A stretch of DNA of 64,000 nucleotides from Gilliamella apis (GTDB lineage Bacteria; Pseudomonadota; Gammaproteobacteria; Enterobacterales; Orbaceae), in the NCBI RefSeq assembly GCF_030758615.1, contig NZ_CP132381.1, positions 2,170,001 to 2,234,000 of the forward strand, given 5' to 3'. Below, one piece after another: positions 2,663 through 56,599 of the stretch. A model generated the notes under the pieces. That model was not told where the DNA came from, searched no databases, and worked only from the letters and a program-made list of their open reading frames with translations. Position 1 is the first letter of the stretch. Every line of letters starts with the position of its first letter. A program made the position numbers and the translations under genes.

Positions 2663-2750
2663 GGAAGTGTGGCTGAGCGGTTGAAAGCACCGGTCTTGAA
2701 AACCGGCGAGGGGCGACCCTCCCAGAGTTCGAATCTCTGCGCTTCCGCCA
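2663..2750 (+). tRNA. tRNA-Ser(UGA), prophage attachment target
   Basis: An 88-nt cloverleaf with GGAAGTG/CGCTTCC acceptor stem, anticodon TGA at 2697-2699 (7-nt loop CTTGAAA), a long variable arm (GCGAGGGGCGACCCTCCC region), the T-arm GTTCGAAT and an encoded CCA. The sequence closely follows enterobacterial serT. It remains intact after integration because the prophage end restores the 3' half. Confidence 0.97.
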
Positions 2751-2751
2751 T
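2691..2751 (+). other. attL core (61-bp repeat within tRNA-Ser)
   Basis: Identical over 61 bp to 56539-56599; it starts at CGGTCTTGAAAACCGG in the anticodon arm and runs one base past the CCA end. Flanking bases differ on both sides (CAC/AAT before, C/T after), which fixes the repeat length. Confidence 0.95.
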
Positions 2752-13090: not shown

Positions 13091-16000
13091 TTACCTATTT
13101 AACAGAATATATAAATCGCCACCTGGTGATGTAGATTTTTGAAGAGCTTCACCTATATTTTTTTGGATAATCGGTTTAATCTGCGCTTCAAGTGCTCTTC
13201 CATCAATATTGCCAGTCTGTGCTTGTGAAGTGCTATTAGACTGCATATTAATCGCAACGTTTGTAGTCACATTAATAGCGCTTGATGAATTATTTGGTTT
13301 ACTAGTAAACGCTATAGGTGAAGCTGGGCTAAGATTGACGCCTCCCCCATTAGCATAACCATGCTGAGCTTCTCTCATTAATGCATATAAATTTGCTACG
13401 CCAAGACGTTTAGTCGCCTCTTTTGTAAAAACGAATTCGCCTTTATGTACAATGCCAGCTGGTTGATATTTATTGCCAATTCCAGTAAACCCACCAGGTT
13501 CGTCGCTATAACCGACGCCCCCACCGTTAGCATAACCATCAATTACTCCACCAGTATAAGCTTGCTGATACCCCCCTGTGGCGGCTCCAGACCCTCCCAT
13601 GCCCATCCACTTCATTGATGTTTGAATAGCCTGTGCAACTAATAACTTATTAATAATTTCAATAATGTTAGTTAAAATGGATTTAGTTAATGATTTGAAA
13701 TCCATTTTCCCTGTTGTTACTAATTCAGTTAATGAATGACTAATTGAGTTCATAGCATTATTAGCAACATCACGAAATCCCTTGAATACATTTTGTCCAT
13801 CTTCCGCAAATTCACACATTCCCACTTTCAAACCAGTTAGCCAATCACCTTGATTTTGGTCTTCCAATTGCCAGCTTTGTTGTAGTGCCTCTTTTGCCTT
13901 GTTGTATTCCTCAGTAACCTTAGCTATTTCATTCGGATTACTTGTTCCTTTCAATGCAATATCACGTTGAGCATTTAACTCTGACATTTCATTGTAACGA
14001 CCTGCGTTTTTAGAAGTCATTCCGAAGGTAGCCTGTTCAGCTTGAGATTTTGCAACTAAATTAGTTGAATATTCCTGCATTTTACGAAGCGCTTTTGTTG
14101 CTTCGTATTGTGCAATTTCTTCACTTAAAGCCGCATTTTTCGCTTGTTGAGCTAACAACGCCTCTTTGTGACCTAAAATATACTTTTCCTGTGCAGTAAG
14201 TTTGCTTTTATCGGTTTTGCTCTCCAGCACCTCGATTTGCGCTTGTAAATCAAAGTATTTTTTACGCTCAGATGTGATAGTGTTGACTGTTAATGATTGT
14301 TCACGTAATGATTTAAGCTGATTCATCAAGCTGATTTCTTGCTGTCTTGATGATTGAAGCTGGTCTGTTGTTGATGCTCTGCTAGCGCCATTTTTTAGAT
14401 GGCGAGCCTTGATTGCTTTTGCGATATATTTAATGTCCTGCTCTGAAGCATAATTTGGACTATTTGGTCCAAACATTTCATTATTTATTTTTGCGGCTGC
14501 TTCCATATCTTTTATTTCTGCATCCGCTCGTTGTCGGGGAGTCATCTTCATTTGAGAGTAGTAATAAAACGGACTTTTTTTTGGGTTTGTAGCTTTGTCT
14601 AAATTCTCTTGTTGAAGTTTTAACCACTCAACTTGAAGCGCTGCATTCCCAGCTTTCGCTGCTATCTCAACTAATGAATCAATAAACGATTTTAATTTGT
14701 CTGAACCGTTGTTTGATGTTACATATAATCGACTAACCTCTTCAATTAACTTGTTAATTTTTTCAGTAGCTTGCAGTGAATCTGTCTCTGCCCGTATCTC
14801 AGCCATTTGTTCAAGTATGCTTTGAGCTTGTTCTTTTGTTGTACCGAAGTAAATCGCATAGTTTTCTATTTTGGCTTTTATACCTTCCACGCTTCTTACA
14901 GTAAGAGCATCTGTTGATTTAAGCAAAGAATTCAAATCTTTTCCGTTTGCTTTGATCTCTTGAATCGCTACCAGAACACTATCTAATCCAGTTTTTTCGC
15001 TAAGTGAGCTTAGTCTTGTCACAGTTTCCTTACCTGCGTCTTCAAGGCTTTTTAACCCATCCTGTAGTTCTTTTTTCGCACTAGATACTACTGTTTTTAG
15101 ATCTTTTTCACTCGATTTAAGTGCTGCCTGAACTAAAAATTTATTTTTTTTGAGTAATTTCATCATGTCGTCAGACAGAAAAAATTTTCCAGTCTGTTTA
15201 TCTTTTGACATAACAGTATTTAGTCGCTCTTGCGCGGCCGCTAATTGTTCTGTTGCGTTCTCCGTTTCAAACAATTTTGGAATCATACTGCCGAGTAAGC
15301 CGACCATCGCTGAAATACCAATATTTAAAGGGTTTAGCGATGTTAATAGCGTGCTAAAAGTGTTGCCGACACCATTTTTCATGATCATCGACATGCCAGA
15401 ATTCCGCAATCCTGAAAAGTTACCTTGCATTAATTGCGTCTGCATAATAGCGGCTTGATGCGTTGCCGCTCTTGTTGTATTCTCGTAATTTTTAGTGGCA
15501 TTAGAAGCTTGCGCAATTTTTTTAATATAAATGTCAGCAGAAGAACTCACACCGAGTTGAGCGGCCTGATAACTCAATAACTGTTGTTTCGTTAAATTTT
15601 GGGTTGCCAATTGCGCTTTTAGTTTATTGATAAAGTCAGTTTTGGCTTTAGTTGCGAGTGTTTCTGCGATTGTTACTTCTTTTTGTTTTACTGCAACATC
15701 AGATAGCAATTGATTATAATTGTTGATATCAAGAGTACCTGCTTTATATGAAGCCCTTACCTGCCCAGTTATTTTCTCTAGCTCTTTTGATGCGGTACTG
15801 ACATTTTTTAATCCGTCAATTTGATTTCTATAGCTGGTATAAAGCCTATCACCAGATTCAACAAGTTGTTTTCTAGCTGTCGCCAGCTTTCGTTCCTGTT
15901 CTGCCGCAATTCTAGAAGCTTTAGCACCTTTAACTGCATTCTGATAAACACGCTCAAAATCTTTTAATTCTTCATCGGTTACATTTAGTGAACGTTTTTT

Positions 16001-16132
16001 TGCGGCAGTTAATTCATCTGTAGCTGATGCCGCATCTTCTGCTTTTTTACTAAATGCATCTAATTTTCTGCTTGCTTCGTCAACGCTTTGTGTATTGATT
16101 TCAAGTGTTAGTGATGTAATTGCTTCTGCCAT
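13091..16132 (-). CDS. Tail tape measure protein, lambda gpH-like (1013 aa)
   Basis: Sets tail length and takes part in DNA delivery. Long coiled-coil protein: N-terminal helical part (TSLTLEINTQSVDEASRKLDAF), a hydrophobic patch near residues 250-290 (LLTSLNPLNIGISAMVGLLGS), extended coiled coil to about 760, then the lambda-tail C-terminal domain (DWLTGLKVGMCEFAEDGQNV; FKSLTKSILTNIIEIINKLLVAQAI) and the Gly-rich GGVIDGYANGGGV segment with AGIVHKGEFVFTKEATKRLG. Two I-E spacers carried by this same prophage match the gene, at 14802-14833 and 15544-15575. Translation starts just downstream of a terminator that ends the upstream moron transcript. Confidence 0.93.
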   Translation of the reverse strand: MAEAITSLTLEINTQSVDEASRKLDAFSKKAEDAASATDELTAAKKRSLNVTDEELKDFERVYQNAVKGAKASRIAAEQERKLATARKQLVESGDRLYTSYRNQIDGLKNVSTASKELEKITGQVRASYKAGTLDINNYNQLLSDVAVKQKEVTIAETLATKAKTDFINKLKAQLATQNLTKQQLLSYQAAQLGVSSSADIYIKKIAQASNATKNYENTTRAATHQAAIMQTQLMQGNFSGLRNSGMSMIMKNGVGNTFSTLLTSLNPLNIGISAMVGLLGSMIPKLFETENATEQLAAAQERLNTVMSKDKQTGKFFLSDDMMKLLKKNKFLVQAALKSSEKDLKTVVSSAKKELQDGLKSLEDAGKETVTRLSSLSEKTGLDSVLVAIQEIKANGKDLNSLLKSTDALTVRSVEGIKAKIENYAIYFGTTKEQAQSILEQMAEIRAETDSLQATEKINKLIEEVSRLYVTSNNGSDKLKSFIDSLVEIAAKAGNAALQVEWLKLQQENLDKATNPKKSPFYYYSQMKMTPRQRADAEIKDMEAAAKINNEMFGPNSPNYASEQDIKYIAKAIKARHLKNGASRASTTDQLQSSRQQEISLMNQLKSLREQSLTVNTITSERKKYFDLQAQIEVLESKTDKSKLTAQEKYILGHKEALLAQQAKNAALSEEIAQYEATKALRKMQEYSTNLVAKSQAEQATFGMTSKNAGRYNEMSELNAQRDIALKGTSNPNEIAKVTEEYNKAKEALQQSWQLEDQNQGDWLTGLKVGMCEFAEDGQNVFKGFRDVANNAMNSISHSLTELVTTGKMDFKSLTKSILTNIIEIINKLLVAQAIQTSMKWMGMGGSGAATGGYQQAYTGGVIDGYANGGGVGYSDEPGGFTGIGNKYQPAGIVHKGEFVFTKEATKRLGVANLYALMREAQHGYANGGGVNLSPASPIAFTSKPNNSSSAINVTTNVAINMQSNSTSQAQTGNIDGRALEAQIKPIIQKNIGEALQKSTSPGGDLYILLNR

Positions 16133-16202: not shown

Positions 16203-16643
16203 TTATTCTTTAATTCGCTCACAAACTAATTTATCTTTAATTTTACTTATTGGTTTATTATTTTTATCGATAGTTGTATATATCGCGGTCATGCTAAAAC
16301 TATCGTTGGATAGATATTCAATCTTTTGAGACCTTTGTCTGTCATCTACCGTATACTCAGGTCTTTTGTAGAAATCTTCTAGGTTAAAAGGCATTAAATT
16401 ATCTTTAGATGAAGATAAATTCCAAAAAAGCTGTCCATCCTTTTTGATAAAGATGTATTTATATTCACCAATTTCAGGTTCACTAAAATCTTGTAGCTTA
16501 CCATTCTTTGATTCTGCTTCTTGTGTGCTAACTGTGCAATTCCACTCACCAAGCAACATCTCCTCGGTTATTTTCTTCCCGCCTTCATCACCACAGCCAG
16601 ACAATGCAAAACAAGCTAACCCCAATAACGCAATTCTTTTCAT
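16203..16643 (-). CDS. Moron-encoded lipoprotein, copy 1
   Basis: 146-residue secreted lipoprotein: signal peptide with hydrophobic core LGLACFAL and lipobox LSGC, lipidated at about Cys16. The mature part starts with ITEEMLLGEWNC and has two conserved-looking tracts, EAESKNGKLQDF and QKIEYLSNDSF. It is about 80% identical by eye to the lipoprotein at 21436-21867, so it is an in-phage duplication. It has its own promoter cassette and terminator. A surface role such as superinfection exclusion or serum/host interaction is plausible but unproven. Confidence 0.75.
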   Translation of the reverse strand: MKRIALLGLACFALSGCGDEGGKKITEEMLLGEWNCTVSTQEAESKNGKLQDFSEPEIGEYKYIFIKKDGQLFWNLSSSKDNLMPFNLEDFYKRPEYTVDDRQRSQKIEYLSNDSFSMTAIYTTIDKNNKPISKIKDKLVCERIKE

Positions 16644-16664
16644 TCCATTCTCCTTTTTTGGGTA

Positions 16665-16693
16665 ATGGTATGTTATTTAAGGATTCGGAGCAA
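16665..16693 (-). promoter_or_regulatory. Moron promoter cassette, copy 1
   Basis: -35 TTGCTC (16688-16693), 17-bp spacer, -10 TACCAT (16665-16670) on the minus strand. The surrounding about 35 bp are repeated almost exactly at 18965-18993 and 22498-22526, each time just upstream of a secreted or membrane moron and just downstream of a terminator. Confidence 0.7.
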
Positions 16694-16716
16694 TAAAAAA
16701 CCGCACAAGGCGGTTT
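16694..16716 (-). terminator. Terminator of type I-F mini-array 1
   Basis: AAACCGC/GCGGTTT stem (16698-16704 / 16710-16716) followed by a T run on the minus strand; it lies 6 bp beyond the last array repeat. Confidence 0.8.
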
Positions 16717-16722
16717 GTGTGA

Positions 16723-16870
16723 ATTTTTAGCTACCTACACGGCAGTAAACGATATTGAATCAGCACGATTAATTATCGAAAATTTCTAAACTACCTACTC
16801 GGTAGTAAACTTGTACCAAGCATTAATTTGGTGTGAGCATGATTTCTAAACTACCTACTCGGTAGTAAAC
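16723..16870 (-). CRISPR. Type I-F-like CRISPR mini-array 1 (3 repeats, 2 spacers)
   Basis: 28-nt repeats at 16723-16750 (degenerate), 16783-16810 and 16843-16870 (the last two identical). Spacers at 16751-16782 and 16811-16842 are both exactly 32 nt. On the minus strand the repeat begins GTTTACTACCG and ends TTTAGAAA, with an inverted core CTACC/GGTAG, closely matching the known I-F repeat that starts GTTCACTGCCG and ends CTTAGAAA. The degenerate repeat is at the leader-distal end, as usual. No cas gene occurs in the window. Spacer 16751-16782 encodes, on the plus strand, a peptide DIESARLIIE like a segment of the antirepressor at 17009. Confidence 0.9.
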
Positions 16871-16876
16871 TAGAAC

Positions 16877-16882
16877 ATTATA
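16877..16882 (-). promoter_or_regulatory. -10 box abutting I-F mini-array 1
   Basis: Perfect TATAAT on the minus strand, 6 bp before the first repeat. The 30 bp after the array (16871-16900) are identical to those after mini-array 2 (19112-19141), so this is a shared minimal leader. No convincing -35 hexamer is seen. Confidence 0.6.
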
Positions 16883-16931
16883 CACAATAAACTTTGTTCA
16901 GAAAAAGAATAATAACCAATTTGTAGCTAAA

Positions 16932-17002
16932 AACCCTTTTTTTACACCCATTTATAATTGTTTGATTTTAAATAAATTATATTTGTCGGTAAAAAAAGGG
17001 TT
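16932..17002. repeat. 14-bp perfect inverted repeat flanking 43 AT-rich bases
   Basis: AACCCTTTTTTTAC at 16932-16945 and its exact complement at 16989-17002, directly downstream of the antirepressor stop codon. It could act as a bidirectional terminator or be the edge of an inserted cassette. Confidence 0.6.
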
Positions 17003-17008
17003 AACTAA

Positions 17009-17833
17009 TTAATGATGTCTAATTACAGGCAATACATTATTCCATTTGTCTATTATATTTTTTGCGTTAATATGCGCTGTTTCTCGCTCAATAATTAATT
17101 TTGCACTATGTAAATTTCGTTTGTACTCGATTGCCATTGAGTGAAACGCACTGACAAAACTAGAATCTAATGCTCGTAATGCAGGTTCTACTAATTCTAT
17201 TTGAGAACGCATTCTATCTGCTACTTTATAAAGCCAAGCTAAGTCGTACCAATCTTCATCAGATAATCCATTTCGAGCATGTACACCACCAAGCCATTGA
17301 ATAGCTTCATCGAATTTGCTAGCAGGCAAATCTTGGTAACGTGGTATCTTAAATTGCTGATAGAATTTAGTGTAAATTGCTTGGTGATGTTCACCTGTTC
17401 GATATGAACGCTCATTGACCGCTTGTTTGATCGCCTGCTGTTGTTCAACTGAAATAGTATTAGGGTATTGTTGAGCAACTTTCGGCATGAAATGATTATA
17501 TAGAACATCGAAGCATTCTAACTGGTATTGTTTTAAAAGTGGTTTAATTTGTGGATTAACTCTGCTTAATTCGATTCCTGCAAGCCAACCATTTAAATAA
17601 CCTAACGGTAAACATAAAACTTCTCTGTTTTTACCGTCTTTTGCAACTACCTTTATCATACAGGCAGTTGAGTTAAGTATCTCATTTCTTTTAATTCTTT
17701 GACGTTGAGCTTCCCAGTCTAAACCTATATTTTCACAAATCGGCTTAATGGCAATATATGGTTTATTTTCGTGGTTGAGTACGATTAAAGATTGATTGTG
17801 AAACTGAATTGTTTCTAGTTTTGTGTTGTTCAT
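17009..17833 (-). CDS. Phage antirepressor (P22_AR_N / ORF6C-like)
   Basis: 274 residues. The N-terminal 120 residues match the P22-antirepressor N-terminal type (IQFHNQSLIVLNHENKPYIAIKPICENIGLDW..QRQRIKRNE, LPLGYLNGWLAGI, ECFDVLYNHF). The middle (about 135-200) looks like an ORF6C-type domain (EQQQAIKQAVNERSYRTG). The C-terminus has HSAKLIIERETAHIN. Such proteins bind the prophage repressor and trigger induction. Its 5' region holds C4-like complementary RNA elements (17884-18034), the known mode of control for P1/P7 Ant. A spacer of the adjacent I-F array appears to derive from a homologue of this gene. Confidence 0.82.
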   Translation of the reverse strand: MNNTKLETIQFHNQSLIVLNHENKPYIAIKPICENIGLDWEAQRQRIKRNEILNSTACMIKVVAKDGKNREVLCLPLGYLNGWLAGIELSRVNPQIKPLLKQYQLECFDVLYNHFMPKVAQQYPNTISVEQQQAIKQAVNERSYRTGEHHQAIYTKFYQQFKIPRYQDLPASKFDEAIQWLGGVHARNGLSDEDWYDLAWLYKVADRMRSQIELVEPALRALDSSFVSAFHSMAIEYKRNLHSAKLIIERETAHINAKNIIDKWNNVLPVIRHH

Positions 17834-17883
17834 TTCTACATCCTTTGAGTTTTATTTTTATATCCCCCATGTTGATTGAGGGC

Positions 17884-18034
17884 GATCGGGTGCTTCAACA
17901 CTGCTCAAAGTCAGCCTGCTTAGTTTCCTTGCGGTTTTGTATTTAGCACGCCACCCGATCATAAAATCTGGACATAAAAATGCCGCTTATCTTTCGGGCG
18001 CGGTTTCCGCTTTGAGATGGTGTGTTGAAGCACC
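17884..18034 (-). ncRNA. C4-like antisense RNA region upstream of the antirepressor
   Basis: On the minus strand a stem GATCGGGTG/CACCCGATC (17952-17960 / 17884-17892) encloses about 60 nt. Two segments inside the leader are complementary to each other over two blocks: GGTGCTTCAACAC (18022-18034) pairs with 17889-17901, and CTCAAAG (18010-18016) pairs with 17904-17910. Paired a/a' and b/b' blocks before an antirepressor are the hallmark of P1/P7 c4 RNA. Family membership is inference; a covariance-model search was not run. Confidence 0.5.
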
Positions 18035-18067
18035 TTTTTAGAATATATATTAATTTAATAAGAAAAG

Positions 18068-18178
18068 TCAACTATTATTAATAGGCGCCAAGAGGTTCGA
18101 AAGCCTACAAAGAAAGGCTGGAGTTATTCCTCTTACGAGTATTGTATTCCTCACCCTCTCGGCATAGATTTTAGGCAT
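18068..18178 (-). CDS. Possible 36-aa leader ORF between C4-like elements
   Basis: ATG at 18178 to TGA, basic peptide (MPKIYAERVRNTILVRG at the start). It sits between the two C4-like elements in the place occupied by icd in the P1 c4-icd-ant operon. No Shine-Dalgarno sequence is visible, so it may only be part of a structured leader. Confidence 0.25.
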   Translation of the reverse strand: MPKIYAERVRNTILVRGITPAFLCRLSNLLAPINNS

Positions 18179-18340
18179 AAAAAAATCACACTGCGGGGTG
18201 AATTCCGTCTTTGTAAGGTTTCGACACCTTGTAGTAAAATATATATCTAATGTAAATTAATGTCAATAATGCAAATAAGACTTAAGATGGTTTTCGAGGT
18301 TATTGTCATCGTGACAACATCTTAGATCGCTCAATGGGCG

Positions 18341-18416
18341 ATCGGGAGCTCAAAACTGCAACGAGTCAGCGGACGTATTCCCATTAAAGGTGTTATATTA
18401 GTTGCACTCCCGATCA
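18341..18416 (-). ncRNA. Second C4-like structured element
   Basis: Nested stems GATCGGGAG (18341-18349) / CTCCCGATC (18408-18416) and TGCAAC (18358-18363) / GTTGCA (18402-18407). The outer GATCGGG/CCCGATC stem, the AGTCAGC word and the flanking ATAAAA..TTGGA sequence are shared with the first element 450 bp away, so the two are diverged copies. It lies just after the stop of the 18461 gene. Confidence 0.45.
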
Positions 18417-18460
18417 TAAAAGTTGGATGCAAAAACCGCTAATATTAAGTTAATTGTTCT

Positions 18461-18934
18461 TTAATTTGAGCATTCTTTTTCTAAGTTTTCGTACGCTTTT
18501 TTATAGCCGGCTAAAGGAAATTTTAAATCTACTGTAGATTTAGATCCAACTCTAATAATGAACTTTTTAGCATCCTGAATTTCTTTATTTAAAAAATCTT
18601 TTTGATTAGTTATTAATACGCCATTTTTTATCTCCCATTCCATCTCTACTGGAGCTTTTTTGTCTGCTCTGAAAATAACCTTAATTAGCCCATCCTCATA
18701 ACCTTTCAGATTATTATCGACGGAGAATGGAGTAATAACGACTAAATCACAACCAACTGTAAAAAAAGCGCTACTTATTGAAGTGCTGTCTGATACATAA
18801 ACTGAAGTCATTGACACTTTTTTTTCATCTGTTATTGGATCAGTGTTGATTCTAACACTCCATTCCTTATACTTAATTTCTTTGGCAAATACAAAAAGTG
18901 GAAATAACAACAAACACAACATAATCTTCTTCAT
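18461..18934 (-). CDS. Secreted moron protein (157 aa)
   Basis: Cleavable signal peptide (MKKIMLCLLLFPLFVFA), then a beta-rich periplasmic protein (WSVRINTDPITDEKKVSM) with two Cys in the mature part (VGCDLVVI and LEKECSN) that could form a disulfide. Driven by moron promoter copy 2. Related in layout to periplasmic proteins that interfere with later infections, but I recognise no family and state no function. Confidence 0.65.
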   Translation of the reverse strand: MKKIMLCLLLFPLFVFAKEIKYKEWSVRINTDPITDEKKVSMTSVYVSDSTSISSAFFTVGCDLVVITPFSVDNNLKGYEDGLIKVIFRADKKAPVEMEWEIKNGVLITNQKDFLNKEIQDAKKFIIRVGSKSTVDLKFPLAGYKKAYENLEKECSN

Positions 18935-18964
18935 ACCATTCCCTTAATCTTTGAGTTTTTTGTA

Positions 18965-18993
18965 ATGGTATGTTATTTAAGGATTCGGAGCAA
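18965..18993 (-). promoter_or_regulatory. Moron promoter cassette, copy 2
   Basis: Same -35 TTGCTC (18988-18993), 17-bp spacer and -10 TACCAT (18965-18970) as copy 1. Confidence 0.7.
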
Positions 18994-19016
18994 TAAAAAA
19001 CCACGCGAAGGTGGTT
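18994..19016 (-). terminator. Terminator of type I-F mini-array 2
   Basis: AACCAC/GTGGTT stem (18999-19004 / 19011-19016) followed by six T on the minus strand, 7 bp after the array. Confidence 0.8.
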
Positions 19017-19023
19017 GGTGTGA

Positions 19024-19111
19024 ATTTTTAGCTACCTACACGGTAGTGAACTAAAGGAAAATGGAGTATTTTTTTATATCAGATTTCTAAACTACCTACA
19101 CGGCAGTGAAC
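19024..19111 (-). CRISPR. Type I-F-like CRISPR mini-array 2 (2 repeats, 1 spacer)
   Basis: 28-nt repeats at 19024-19051 (degenerate, leader-distal) and 19084-19111, enclosing one 32-nt spacer (19052-19083). The intact repeat on the minus strand starts GTTCACTGCCG, identical to the canonical I-F start, so it is closer to the chromosomal I-F type than array 1. Array, leader and terminator have the same layout as array 1, so one is a duplicate of the other with exchanged spacers. It lies 43 bp from the I-E array. Confidence 0.85.
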
Positions 19112-19117
19112 TAGAAC

Positions 19118-19123
19118 ATTATA
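19118..19123 (-). promoter_or_regulatory. -10 box abutting I-F mini-array 2
   Basis: TATAAT on the minus strand 6 bp before the repeat, in the 30-bp sequence shared with array 1. Confidence 0.55.
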
Positions 19124-19154
19124 CACAATAAACTTTGTTCAAAAACCGATTGCA

Positions 19155-19488
19155 TAATTTATCCCTATGTATATAGGGAACAGAAGTTATCAAGCAGCGC
19201 AACTCGGTGTGAGTTCGGTTTATCCCTATGTGTATAGGGAACACTATCTACATCGTAACCCGTTTTGTGCTATGTGCGGTTTATCCCTATGTGTATAGGG
19301 AACACTCACATTTAAATTCGCTATCGTGACCGGTATACGGTTTATCCCTGTATGCACAGGGAACACTCCATCTGTTCTAAAATGCTTTGAGCTTGTTCCG
19401 GTTTATCCCTATATGTATAGGGAACACGGATCAATCTAGAGCTGAAAGAGGAACAGGCTCGGTTTATCCCTATATGTATAGGGAACAC
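19155..19488 (-). CRISPR. Type I-E-like CRISPR array (6 repeats, 5 spacers)
   Basis: 29-nt repeats at 19155-19183 (degenerate), 19216-19244, 19277-19305, 19338-19366, 19399-19427 and 19460-19488; five spacers of exactly 32 nt between them (61-nt period). On the minus strand repeats run GTGTTCCC..GGGATAAACCG, the I-E consensus ends. The stem bases vary with compensation (CCCTATAC..CATAGGG versus CCCTGTGC..ACAGGG), which argues for a selected hairpin. The degenerate repeat is leader-distal. Spacer 19184-19215 matches 15544-15575 (28/32) and spacer 19367-19398 matches 14802-14833 (27/32), both in the tape-measure gene. No cas genes are present. Confidence 0.97.
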
Positions 19489-19492
19489 TCTT

Positions 19493-19498
19493 ATTATA
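19493..19498 (-). promoter_or_regulatory. -10 box abutting the I-E array
   Basis: TATAAT on the minus strand, 4 bp before the leader-proximal repeat, within an AT-rich leader (19489-19544). Confidence 0.55.
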
Positions 19499-19544
19499 AC
19501 CTATTGTTTTATAATTGAAATAATTAGTTAAAAATTTCTACCAA

Positions 19545-19578
19545 TCCCCTTATAACTTTAATTATTGTTACAAGGGGA
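19545..19578 (-). terminator. Hairpin separating the 61-aa gene from the CRISPR leader
   Basis: TCCCCTTATAAC (19545-19556) pairs with GTTACAAGGGGA (19567-19578) with one mismatch. On the minus strand it is followed by an AT-rich run containing ATTTTT about 15 bp on. Likely stops transcription of the 19584 gene before the array. Confidence 0.5.
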
Positions 19579-19583
19579 ATCAT

Positions 19584-19769
19584 TTAAACTTTTTCAGAAT
19601 CTTTTACTAAATGTAATGCGTAGTTAACCAGATCCTGTATTACCCAAAACGCATTAGATTTGTCCTCATCCTCAGCTGTATTGCTCCCAAGAATATAAGC
19701 CAGAGACTTAGCTTGACCCAGATTTTTAACTATCATTTCGTAGTTGTCACCATCAATTACAAATTTCAT
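19584..19769 (-). CDS. Small acidic protein (61 aa) between CRISPR array and antirepressor
   Basis: Acidic protein (NTAEDEDKSNAFWVIQDLVN) with predicted helices and no membrane segment. It lies between the I-E leader and the immI-like module and shares the upstream ATTTCTACATCCT word with the leader of the antirepressor at 17833. No family recognised. Small acidic phage proteins include anti-CRISPRs and antirepressor partners, but nothing here demonstrates either. Confidence 0.5.
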   Translation of the reverse strand: MKFVIDGDNYEMIVKNLGQAKSLAYILGSNTAEDEDKSNAFWVIQDLVNYALHLVKDSEKV

Positions 19770-21435: not shown

Positions 21436-21867
21436 TTATTCTTTAATTCGCTCACAAACTAATTTATCTTTTGTTTTACTGGTTGGTTTATTGTTTTTAT
21501 CGATGGTTGCAGTTACATCAGTCATTCTAAAACTATCGTTAGATAGATATTCAATCTTTTGCGATATTTGTCTGTCATCTACCGTATACTCAGTTTTTTT
21601 GTAAATATCTTCCAGATTAAAAGGAAATAAATGATCTACATGTTCAGATAAACCCCAAAAAAGCTGCCCATCCTTTTTGATAAAGATGTATTTATATTCA
21701 CCAATTTCAGGATCACCAAAATCTTGTAACTTACCATTCTTTGATTCTGCTTCTTGTGTGCTAAGTTTACAATTCCATTCACCAAGCAACATCTCCTCAG
21801 TTATTTTTTTTTCTTCACAACCAAATAATGTTAATCCAATTAAACTTATTAACAATAAATTTTTCAT
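21436..21867 (-). CDS. Moron-encoded lipoprotein, copy 2
   Basis: 143-residue paralogue of the lipoprotein at 16203: signal peptide with lipobox TLFGC, then ITEEMLLGEWNC and nearly the same sequence to the shared C-terminus DKLVCERIKE. Differences cluster in the middle (NLSSSKDNLMPF versus GLSEHVDHLFPF), which could mark a variable binding surface. It follows the membrane-anchored gene at 21901 with a 33-bp gap and probably shares its promoter. Confidence 0.72.
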   Translation of the reverse strand: MKNLLLISLIGLTLFGCEEKKITEEMLLGEWNCKLSTQEAESKNGKLQDFGDPEIGEYKYIFIKKDGQLFWGLSEHVDHLFPFNLEDIYKKTEYTVDDRQISQKIEYLSNDSFRMTDVTATIDKNNKPTSKTKDKLVCERIKE

Positions 21868-55401: not shown

Positions 55402-56418
55402 ATGGGCAGAAGTCGAAAAGATAAAGCCGATAATAGATTGCCAGAGCGTGTGTATAAAAACAAATATTCTTACGTTTACCAACCGAGACAAGGTAAAAAA
55501 GTTACATTATGTCCGATTAGCGCAAGTATGGCTGAATTATGGGCTAAATATAATAATGAAATCGCAAAAACACATTACAAACTAACCTTTTCTAAGCTGT
55601 GGGCGTTGTTCTTAGATAGCGCCTACTTTTCAGAATTAGCACCGAGAACGCAAAAGGACTATCAGCAACATAGTAAAAAATTGCTAAAAGTATTTGGTAA
55701 TGTTGATCCTGATAACATTAAACCAGAGGATATATGGAGGTATTTAGATTTAAGAGGGAAACAAAGCAAAACCCAAGCTAATCACGAAAAGTCCAGTATG
55801 TCACGTGTTTATAGTTGGGGATATGAGCGCGGTTATGTTAAAGGTAATCCTTGTCAGGGAATTTCTAAGCTAAAGGTTAAGGCTAGAGATAAATATGCTG
55901 AGGACGACGAATATTACACAATATTAGAAATCGCAAGACCGTCAGTTAGGATCGCTATGGAAATCGCATATCTATGCGCCATGCGAGTGAGTGATATCCT
56001 AAAAATTCGGTATTCACAAATACTAGATGAAGGATTGTTTGCTAAACAGGGGAAAACAGGCGTAAAACAAATAAAACTATGGACAGATAGATTAAAAGAT
56101 GTTTTTGAATATGCCCGCGAACATTTCCCACCTAATGATAAGGATTCATTTTTGATATTAAATTCAAATGGCGTTGAGTACAGCTATAAAAATTTTAACG
56201 AGCATTGGAACGAAGACAAAAAGGAGGCTGAAAAAATTTTAGGTAAAGAAATTACTTTCACATTTCACGATTTAAAAGCTAAAGGCATTTCTGATTTTGA
56301 GGGAGCGACTAAAGATAAACAAATGTTTAGTGGACATAAAACAGAATCGCAAGTGCTCGTATATGATCGCAAGGTCAAAAAATCCCCTACTTTAAACCTG
56401 CCAAAAGTGACAAAATAG
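55402..56418 (+). CDS. int: Tyrosine integrase
   Basis: 338 residues. N-terminal arm-binding domain (GRSRKDKADNRLPERVYK), core-binding domain (about 60-150), and catalytic domain with Arg in AMRVSDILKIR, Lys in KQGKTGVKQ, a box II HDLKAKG (Lys where HxxR usually has Arg), His in FSGHKTE and the nucleophile Tyr in VYDRKV. Lies 120 bp from attR and catalyses tRNA-Ser insertion. Box II deviation is common in this subgroup. Confidence 0.92.
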   Translation: MGRSRKDKADNRLPERVYKNKYSYVYQPRQGKKVTLCPISASMAELWAKYNNEIAKTHYKLTFSKLWALFLDSAYFSELAPRTQKDYQQHSKKLLKVFGNVDPDNIKPEDIWRYLDLRGKQSKTQANHEKSSMSRVYSWGYERGYVKGNPCQGISKLKVKARDKYAEDDEYYTILEIARPSVRIAMEIAYLCAMRVSDILKIRYSQILDEGLFAKQGKTGVKQIKLWTDRLKDVFEYAREHFPPNDKDSFLILNSNGVEYSYKNFNEHWNEDKKEAEKILGKEITFTFHDLKAKGISDFEGATKDKQMFSGHKTESQVLVYDRKVKKSPTLNLPKVTK

Positions 56419-56538: not shown

Positions 56539-56599
56539 CGGTCTTGAAAACCGGCGAGGGGCGACCCTCCCAGAGTTCGAATCTCTGCGCTTCCGCCAT
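56539..56599 (+). other. attR core (61-bp repeat)
   Basis: Exact copy of 2691-2751; the 5' half of the tRNA is absent here, so this is the displaced original 3' tRNA end. Confidence 0.95.

Follow-up and report, generated by a model that had tools for sequence, protein, structure and literature searches.

What do CRISPR arrays do inside a prophage when two of their spacers match that prophage's own tape-measure gene? A first-pass annotation raised this question for the window, a 64-kb stretch of the 2.71-Mb, single-contig genome of a strain of Gilliamella, a bee gut bacterium. The window holds a prophage of 53.9 kb, which spans from a tRNA-Ser repeat to its integrase-side copy and encodes head and tail proteins, an antirepressor and a repressor. 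The attL site (2691..2751, plus strand) overlaps the tRNA-Ser gene (2663-2750), of which it comprises the 3′ part. It is a 61-bp exact repeat of attR (56539..56599, plus strand), located beside the integrase gene (55402..56418, plus strand; PHROG integrase, E 2e-46). The arrays are thus within a provirus, with a 61-bp att repeat on either side. They lie on its minus strand amid phage genes, between the tape-measure gene (13091..16132, minus strand; PHROG tail length tape measure, E 3.2e-102), which contains both self-matching sites, and an antirepressor gene. Three copies of the small RNA family sRNA-Xcc1 (RF02221, 64.5-72.6 bits) are found inside the prophage between two I-F arrays, at 17876-17960, 18079-18163 and 18332-18415 on the minus strand. 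A pair of small lipoprotein-like ORFs that look alike by eye (16203-16643 and 21436-21867, minus strand) adjoins the array region. The tape-measure protein has seven relatives in IMG/VR, and matches, many of them partial, occur in 12 of the 35 genus genomes including the source strain. A single-sequence search of genome_contigs with this protein confirmed nothing, and an alignment search of the same set returned two Gilliamella contigs.

The eight spacers counted by the annotation were recovered, five in one type I-E array and three in two type I-F arrays. The I-E array (19155..19488, minus strand) consists of six repeats of 29 nt, the leader-distal one degenerate, and five spacers of 32 nt. 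It runs straight into I-F array 1 (19024..19111, minus strand), which has two repeats, one of them above the Rfam CRISPR-DR4 cut-off, and a single spacer (19052-19083). I-F array 2 (16723..16870, minus strand) has three repeats and two spacers (16751-16782 and 16811-16842). A terminator-like hairpin follows each I-F array on the minus strand (18999..19016 and 16698..16716, respectively), and the array region contains five such hairpins against 1.9 expected. A promoter scan of the region gave no excess (10 against 11.9 expected); by reading, the I-E leader and both I-F leaders each hold a TATAAT shortly upstream of the first repeat. The Cas3, Cas7e, Cas8e and Cas7f models placed nothing in the window, and on these models no cas gene accompanies the arrays. 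By spacer number the I-F arrays (one and two) agree with the one-or-two convention for mini-arrays while the I-E array (five) does not, but that limit is a convention of size, not of mechanism.

The two self-matching sites were confirmed. Spacer 19184-19215, read in the crRNA sense on the minus strand, matches 15544..15575 on the plus strand at 28/32, with mismatches at positions 17, 20, 23 and 32, so that the first 16 nt are perfect, and the site is preceded by AAG. Spacer 19367-19398 matches 14802..14833 on the minus strand at 27/32, with the first 17 nt perfect and AAA preceding. The best of 400 mononucleotide shuffles reached 25/32 anywhere in the window, and did so once. All differences but the last codon had been described as synonymous. 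This holds for spacer 19367, where the last codon changes Ala to Asp and the other three differences are silent; for spacer 19184 all four are synonymous, the last (TTG/TTA, Leu) included. Synonymous differences are as expected of a diverged homologue. The most plausible reading of the imperfect self site is that a sibling's version of the gene was sampled, from which the prophage's own has diverged.

A better-fitting sibling site was found for one of the two spacers. Spacer 19184..19215 (minus strand) matches the tape-measure gene of the sibling phage G038 (the record of L018), whose tape-measure protein is 82% identical, at 31/32 with an AAG flank. For spacer 19367..19398 (minus strand) the best site is the prophage's own tape-measure gene (27/32), the siblings giving 25-26/32. 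The proposed origin of both spacers in a close homologue of this gene is supported for 19184; the source of 19367 was not found. A seed match of the latter in L084 was rejected, the full spacer falling below 23/32 there. Tape-measure matches of 32/32 with AAG had been predicted in siblings; the AAG match in G038, at 31/32, comes close, and no tape-measure match was perfect. The only perfect match of a prophage spacer was that of spacer 19245..19276 (minus strand) to an HNH endonuclease gene (32/32, AAG) of L060, a different Gilliamella phage with other terminase, portal and capsid families, which is the same contig as G020:C26 of a genus genome. Among four other genus contigs with the L060 capsid, this spacer matches one at 30/32 (CTA) and one at 27/32 (AAA), and no site of at least 24/32 was present in the remaining two. 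The I-F spacer 19052..19083 (minus strand) matches the 6.7-kb phage fragment L085 at 31/32 with CC. Its site is in ORF 494-952, whose product resembles by eye that of 16203-16643 of the prophage and which is matched by mini-array spacers of two phages. Spacer 19428..19459 (minus strand) matches a decayed-looking element in G020, beside a tRNA-like sequence, at 30/32 with a CTG flank.

No target was found for spacer 19306..19337 (minus strand) or for the I-F spacers 16751 and 16811, and four of the eight prophage spacers had no site of at least 28/32 other than their own copy. With up to three mismatches, spacers 19306 and 16811 were found in 44 genomes at their own places only, and seeds of 20-22 nt from 19306, 19428, 16811 and 16751 had no match in viral_contigs. 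Comparison of 16640-19600 with phage and plasmid records gave no high-identity match covering a spacer among the best 20 of 32 and the best 10 of 62 listed.

The targeting is reciprocal. A G038 I-E spacer matches 17807..17838 (minus strand), at the start of antirepressor gene 17009-17833 (PHROG anti-repressor), at 32/32 with ATG. The same spacer matches G036 and G037 at 32/32, and G038's own copy of the site at 26/32. A G038 I-F spacer matches 19689..19720 (plus strand) at 32/32 with CC, inside a 61-aa ORF (19584-19769, minus strand) and 200 bases from the I-E array; it also matches L085 at 31/32 with CC, and the next G038 I-F spacer matches L085 at 32/32 with CC. These two perfect return matches, together with those of the prophage spacers to G038 (31/32, AAG) and L085 (31/32, CC), agree with the annotation's view that the arrays are aimed at sibling phages, and they show related viruses among the targets. 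The window and G038 have no spacer in common, indicating that spacer turnover has occurred.

Comparable arrays recur in related phages. I-F mini-arrays were found in G038, G039, G041, G021:C22 and G016:C131, and G038 also carries an I-E array. In G016:C131, one mini-array spacer has sites in G039 and G040, at 28/32 with CC. Of 19 candidate mini-array spacers, two of them doubtful (the L015 pair and the first G038 I-F unit), eight matched a place outside arrays at 28/32 or better. The records searched include three, L060, L085 and L092, that were brought in by spacer matches, and without these the count is four; the best of 300 shuffles reached 25/32. For the other 11 of the 19, no site of at least 28/32 other than their own copy was found. 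At the thresholds used, no array was detected in G040, in G036 (a fragment) or in the second related prophage of the source genome. I-E-like pairs in L015/L017 (G035, G037) were set aside as doubtful remnants, their repeats scoring 23/29 and 21/29 with no leader likeness. The decayed third prophage of the source genome keeps one I-E and one I-F repeat, the I-E repeat being directly followed by an I-F leader-like stretch and then the I-F repeat (L049 10180-10278; G000:C1, ~1.81 Mb).

AAG and ATG are canonical flanks for type I-E and CC for type I-F. To these can be added the flanks used by the chromosomal arrays of the genus, for which 257 spacers were collected from 20 Gilliamella Cas loci (12 of 23 Cas7f places and 8 of 20 Cas7e places), some two-repeat arrays that look like chance or decay being kept. 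The best target per spacer in 14 phage or prophage records was tallied by hand. Seven chromosomal I-E spacers had at least 30 matches, flanked by AAG (five), GAG (one) and AAA (one); two I-F spacers reached this level, both with CC. The mini-array flanks agree with these chromosomal spacers (AAG in 5/7 for I-E, CC in 2/2 for I-F). Two chromosomal I-E spacers of G015 match the source prophage itself, at 32/32 and 33/33, both with AAG, and the source strain holds one spacer in its chromosomal I-F array against G038 (31/32, CC).

The I-E leader (19489..19538, minus strand; 50 nt compared) is 39/50 identical to the host chromosomal I-E leader, 41/50 to the sequence upstream of a lone chromosomal I-E repeat and 42/50 to that of the sibling G038, and in each comparison none of 500 shuffles scored as high. 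An unrelated upstream sequence (L015) was at chance level (300 of 500 shuffles). The lone repeat, with its host-like leader, is followed by one spacer and then a decayed repeat (L003 1501-1591; G000:C1:1655578). Both I-F leaders of the prophage resemble both host I-F leaders, a likeness equalled by 0 to 2 of 500 shuffles, and the G038 I-F upstream sequence is not host-like (57 and 326 of 500). The I-F leaders of G039, G041, G021 and G016 are 47-50/50 alike among themselves and resemble the host's at a level close to chance (128 to 402 of 500 shuffles). Against the prophage leader at 16843 they gave 2, 2, 3 and 17 of 500 shuffles, respectively, and they are farther from the leader at 19084 (67, 67, 91 and 114 of 500).

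The repeats also resemble those of host systems: an I-E repeat is 28/29 identical to the source strain's array, and one I-F repeat is 28/28 identical to a chromosomal repeat in G015. Stem pairing is preserved in 94.3% of stem cells across 14 distinct I-F repeats and in 93.7% across nine distinct I-E repeats, both sets including host repeats, the I-F set one weak single G038 repeat and the I-E set two doubtful L015 repeats. Of 500 shuffles, 0 (I-F) and 3 (I-E) equalled these values; when the register was slid, pairing fell to 50.0% and 63.5% at most, respectively. Changes on both sides occurred at 2/5 I-F pairs and 1/7 I-E pairs. Some compensatory changes in the stems may thus have taken place, but the covariation is suggestive only, because shuffles often reached the same counts of both-side changes (226 for I-F and 435 for I-E of 500) and of further pair types (488 and 492 of 500). 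Counted from the leader end, the first and second I-E repeats are identical, the third differs, the fourth and fifth are identical and the last is degenerate. This pattern fits repeat duplication within blocks, with recombination or drift between blocks, and the spacers may have arrived by either route.

Could the arrays work in the strain that carries them? Its I-E system appears reduced to Cas3e and a four-repeat array standing alone (L012). The Cas7e and Cas8e models found nothing in this strain; both models were positive in only 2 of 14 control genomes, and this negative result leans on the Cas7e model finding 20 of the 35 genus genomes. The chromosomal I-E remnant without Cascade genes (L012 3389-6434, G000:C1) is followed by ATPase genes that weakly resemble defence families. 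In the I-F locus cas6f, cas7f, cas5f, cas3f and cas1f are present and cas8f is split over two ORFs, one matching the N-terminal and the other the C-terminal part of the model (L011 5749-7129, G000:C1). The two chromosomal I-F arrays hold an identical 32-nt spacer between differing repeats (L011 2817-2848 and 15404-15435). Judging from these gene contents, probably neither array type works in the source strain, and the self site is probably harmless there. It had been proposed that the first site would self-target. In the source strain this is unlikely, given the split cas8f and the failure to find Cas7e or Cas8e; a host whose I-E system is complete could see it occur. For type I-E, an AAG flank and a perfect first 16 nt are compatible with interference or primed acquisition, and some of either at the self site is plausible in such a host.

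Taken together, the prophage carries a leader-bearing I-E array and two I-F arrays, which it quite likely uses, through the Cas proteins of whatever host it enters, to exclude the Gilliamella phages that it targets. Each array would be transcribed from its own leader, and the transcript would be cut by host Cas6e or Cas6f. The crRNA would be loaded on host Cascade, the loaded host complexes would exclude rival phages from the lysogen, and new spacers may be inserted next to the leader by host Cas1-Cas2. Weighing against this reading are the CTG flank at the site of spacer 19428, the 11 of 19 candidate spacers lacking a good target elsewhere, the related prophages in which no array was detected and the unlike I-F upstream sequence of G038.

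A less probable account, to which we give a small but real chance, makes the arrays passengers, fragments of host arrays picked up through recombination and carried without use in interference. The incomplete-looking machinery of the source strain, the decayed remnants in its broken related prophage, the doubtful ones in G035 and G037, and the half of the spacers (4/8) with no target outside the prophage would all suit such cargo. Mere cargo does not readily explain why mini-arrays recur in G038, G039, G041, G021 and G016, why leader and repeat stems have been preserved, or why the window and G038, which hold no common spacer, target each other. The repeats might instead act as RNA anti-CRISPR decoys that bind host Cas6 and Cas7, the spacers being incidental; phage-borne single repeats do so on type I-F (PMC10651486), and weak single repeats are present in G038. 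This is very unlikely for arrays of 2 to 6 regularly spaced repeats, not solitary ones, whose 32-nt spacers match rivals with valid flanks. That the self-matching spacers bind the prophage's own tape-measure gene weakly, without cutting, and so regulate it is hardly credible. In its favour are an AAG flank and 16 perfect initial nt at the 28/32 site; against it are a better sibling site (31/32), synonymous differences as in a diverged homologue, and a source strain in which Cas7e and Cas8e were not found.

If exclusion of rival phages through host Cas is accepted, why two subtypes? Markers in the 35 genus genomes form a mosaic (11 I-E only, 12 I-F only, nine both and three neither), with five of the 35 genomes less than 90% complete and marker presence not equal to a working system, the source strain being counted as I-F. 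Because of this mosaic, we tentatively suggest, as a possibility that the balance of evidence does not yet favour, that dual-subtype cassettes hedge on host machinery in a conflict among Gilliamella phages of one family, host-like leaders letting Cas1-Cas2 update the memory against siblings. If so, a phage with both arrays could be armed in 32 of the 35 genomes, against 20 or 21. With valid flanks, named phage pairs, an I-E leader resembling the host's and two subtypes, the arrays make phage-phage CRISPR conflict directly testable in a bee-gut genus, and likewise spacer gain by phages via host Cas1-Cas2. The arrays also carry a warning for host prediction, in which prophage-located spacers can be mistaken for host immunity.

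Among known systems, the arrays are best read as belonging with virus-borne mini-CRISPR arrays for phage-phage exclusion. Among the titles and abstract openings listed, no report of mini-arrays in Gilliamella phages appeared, nor did one in the consulted passages of bee-phage papers. Mini-arrays for virus-virus exclusion were described in archaeal viruses (2019, PMC6858448) and have been reported in prophages. The archaeal arrays share with the prophage the lack of cas genes, host-like leaders, mutual spacers between related viruses, own target copies that differ and some targets near the arrays, and two-way targeting has been described for two archaeal viruses. They differ in having one or two spacers per array and in belonging to non-lytic viruses, whereas here a bacterial prophage carries up to five spacers and two subtypes side by side. 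The phage and prophage mini-arrays of Faure et al. 2019, known here through citing papers (PMC6858448, PMC7099407, PMC11656645), are likewise cas-less and target related phages. Their leaders are given as absent (PMC6858448) or unlike the host's (PMC7099407), both citing the 2019 survey, in contrast to the host-like I-E and I-F leaders of the prophage. Spacers of bacterial phage mini-arrays are reported to be acquired probably by recombination. The arrays in Clostridioides difficile prophages (PMC6079278) share the prophage location and a proposed action against related competing phages; they are of type I-B, and the sections consulted note no reciprocal targeting between named phages. The Racr RNAs (PMC10651486) are also phage-encoded CRISPR repeats that would act through host Cas proteins, but are solitary repeats, whereas the prophage has arrays with targeting spacers. 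What is unusual here is that bacterial temperate phages combine the two subtypes with leaders like the host's, arrays of up to five spacers and targeting in both directions.
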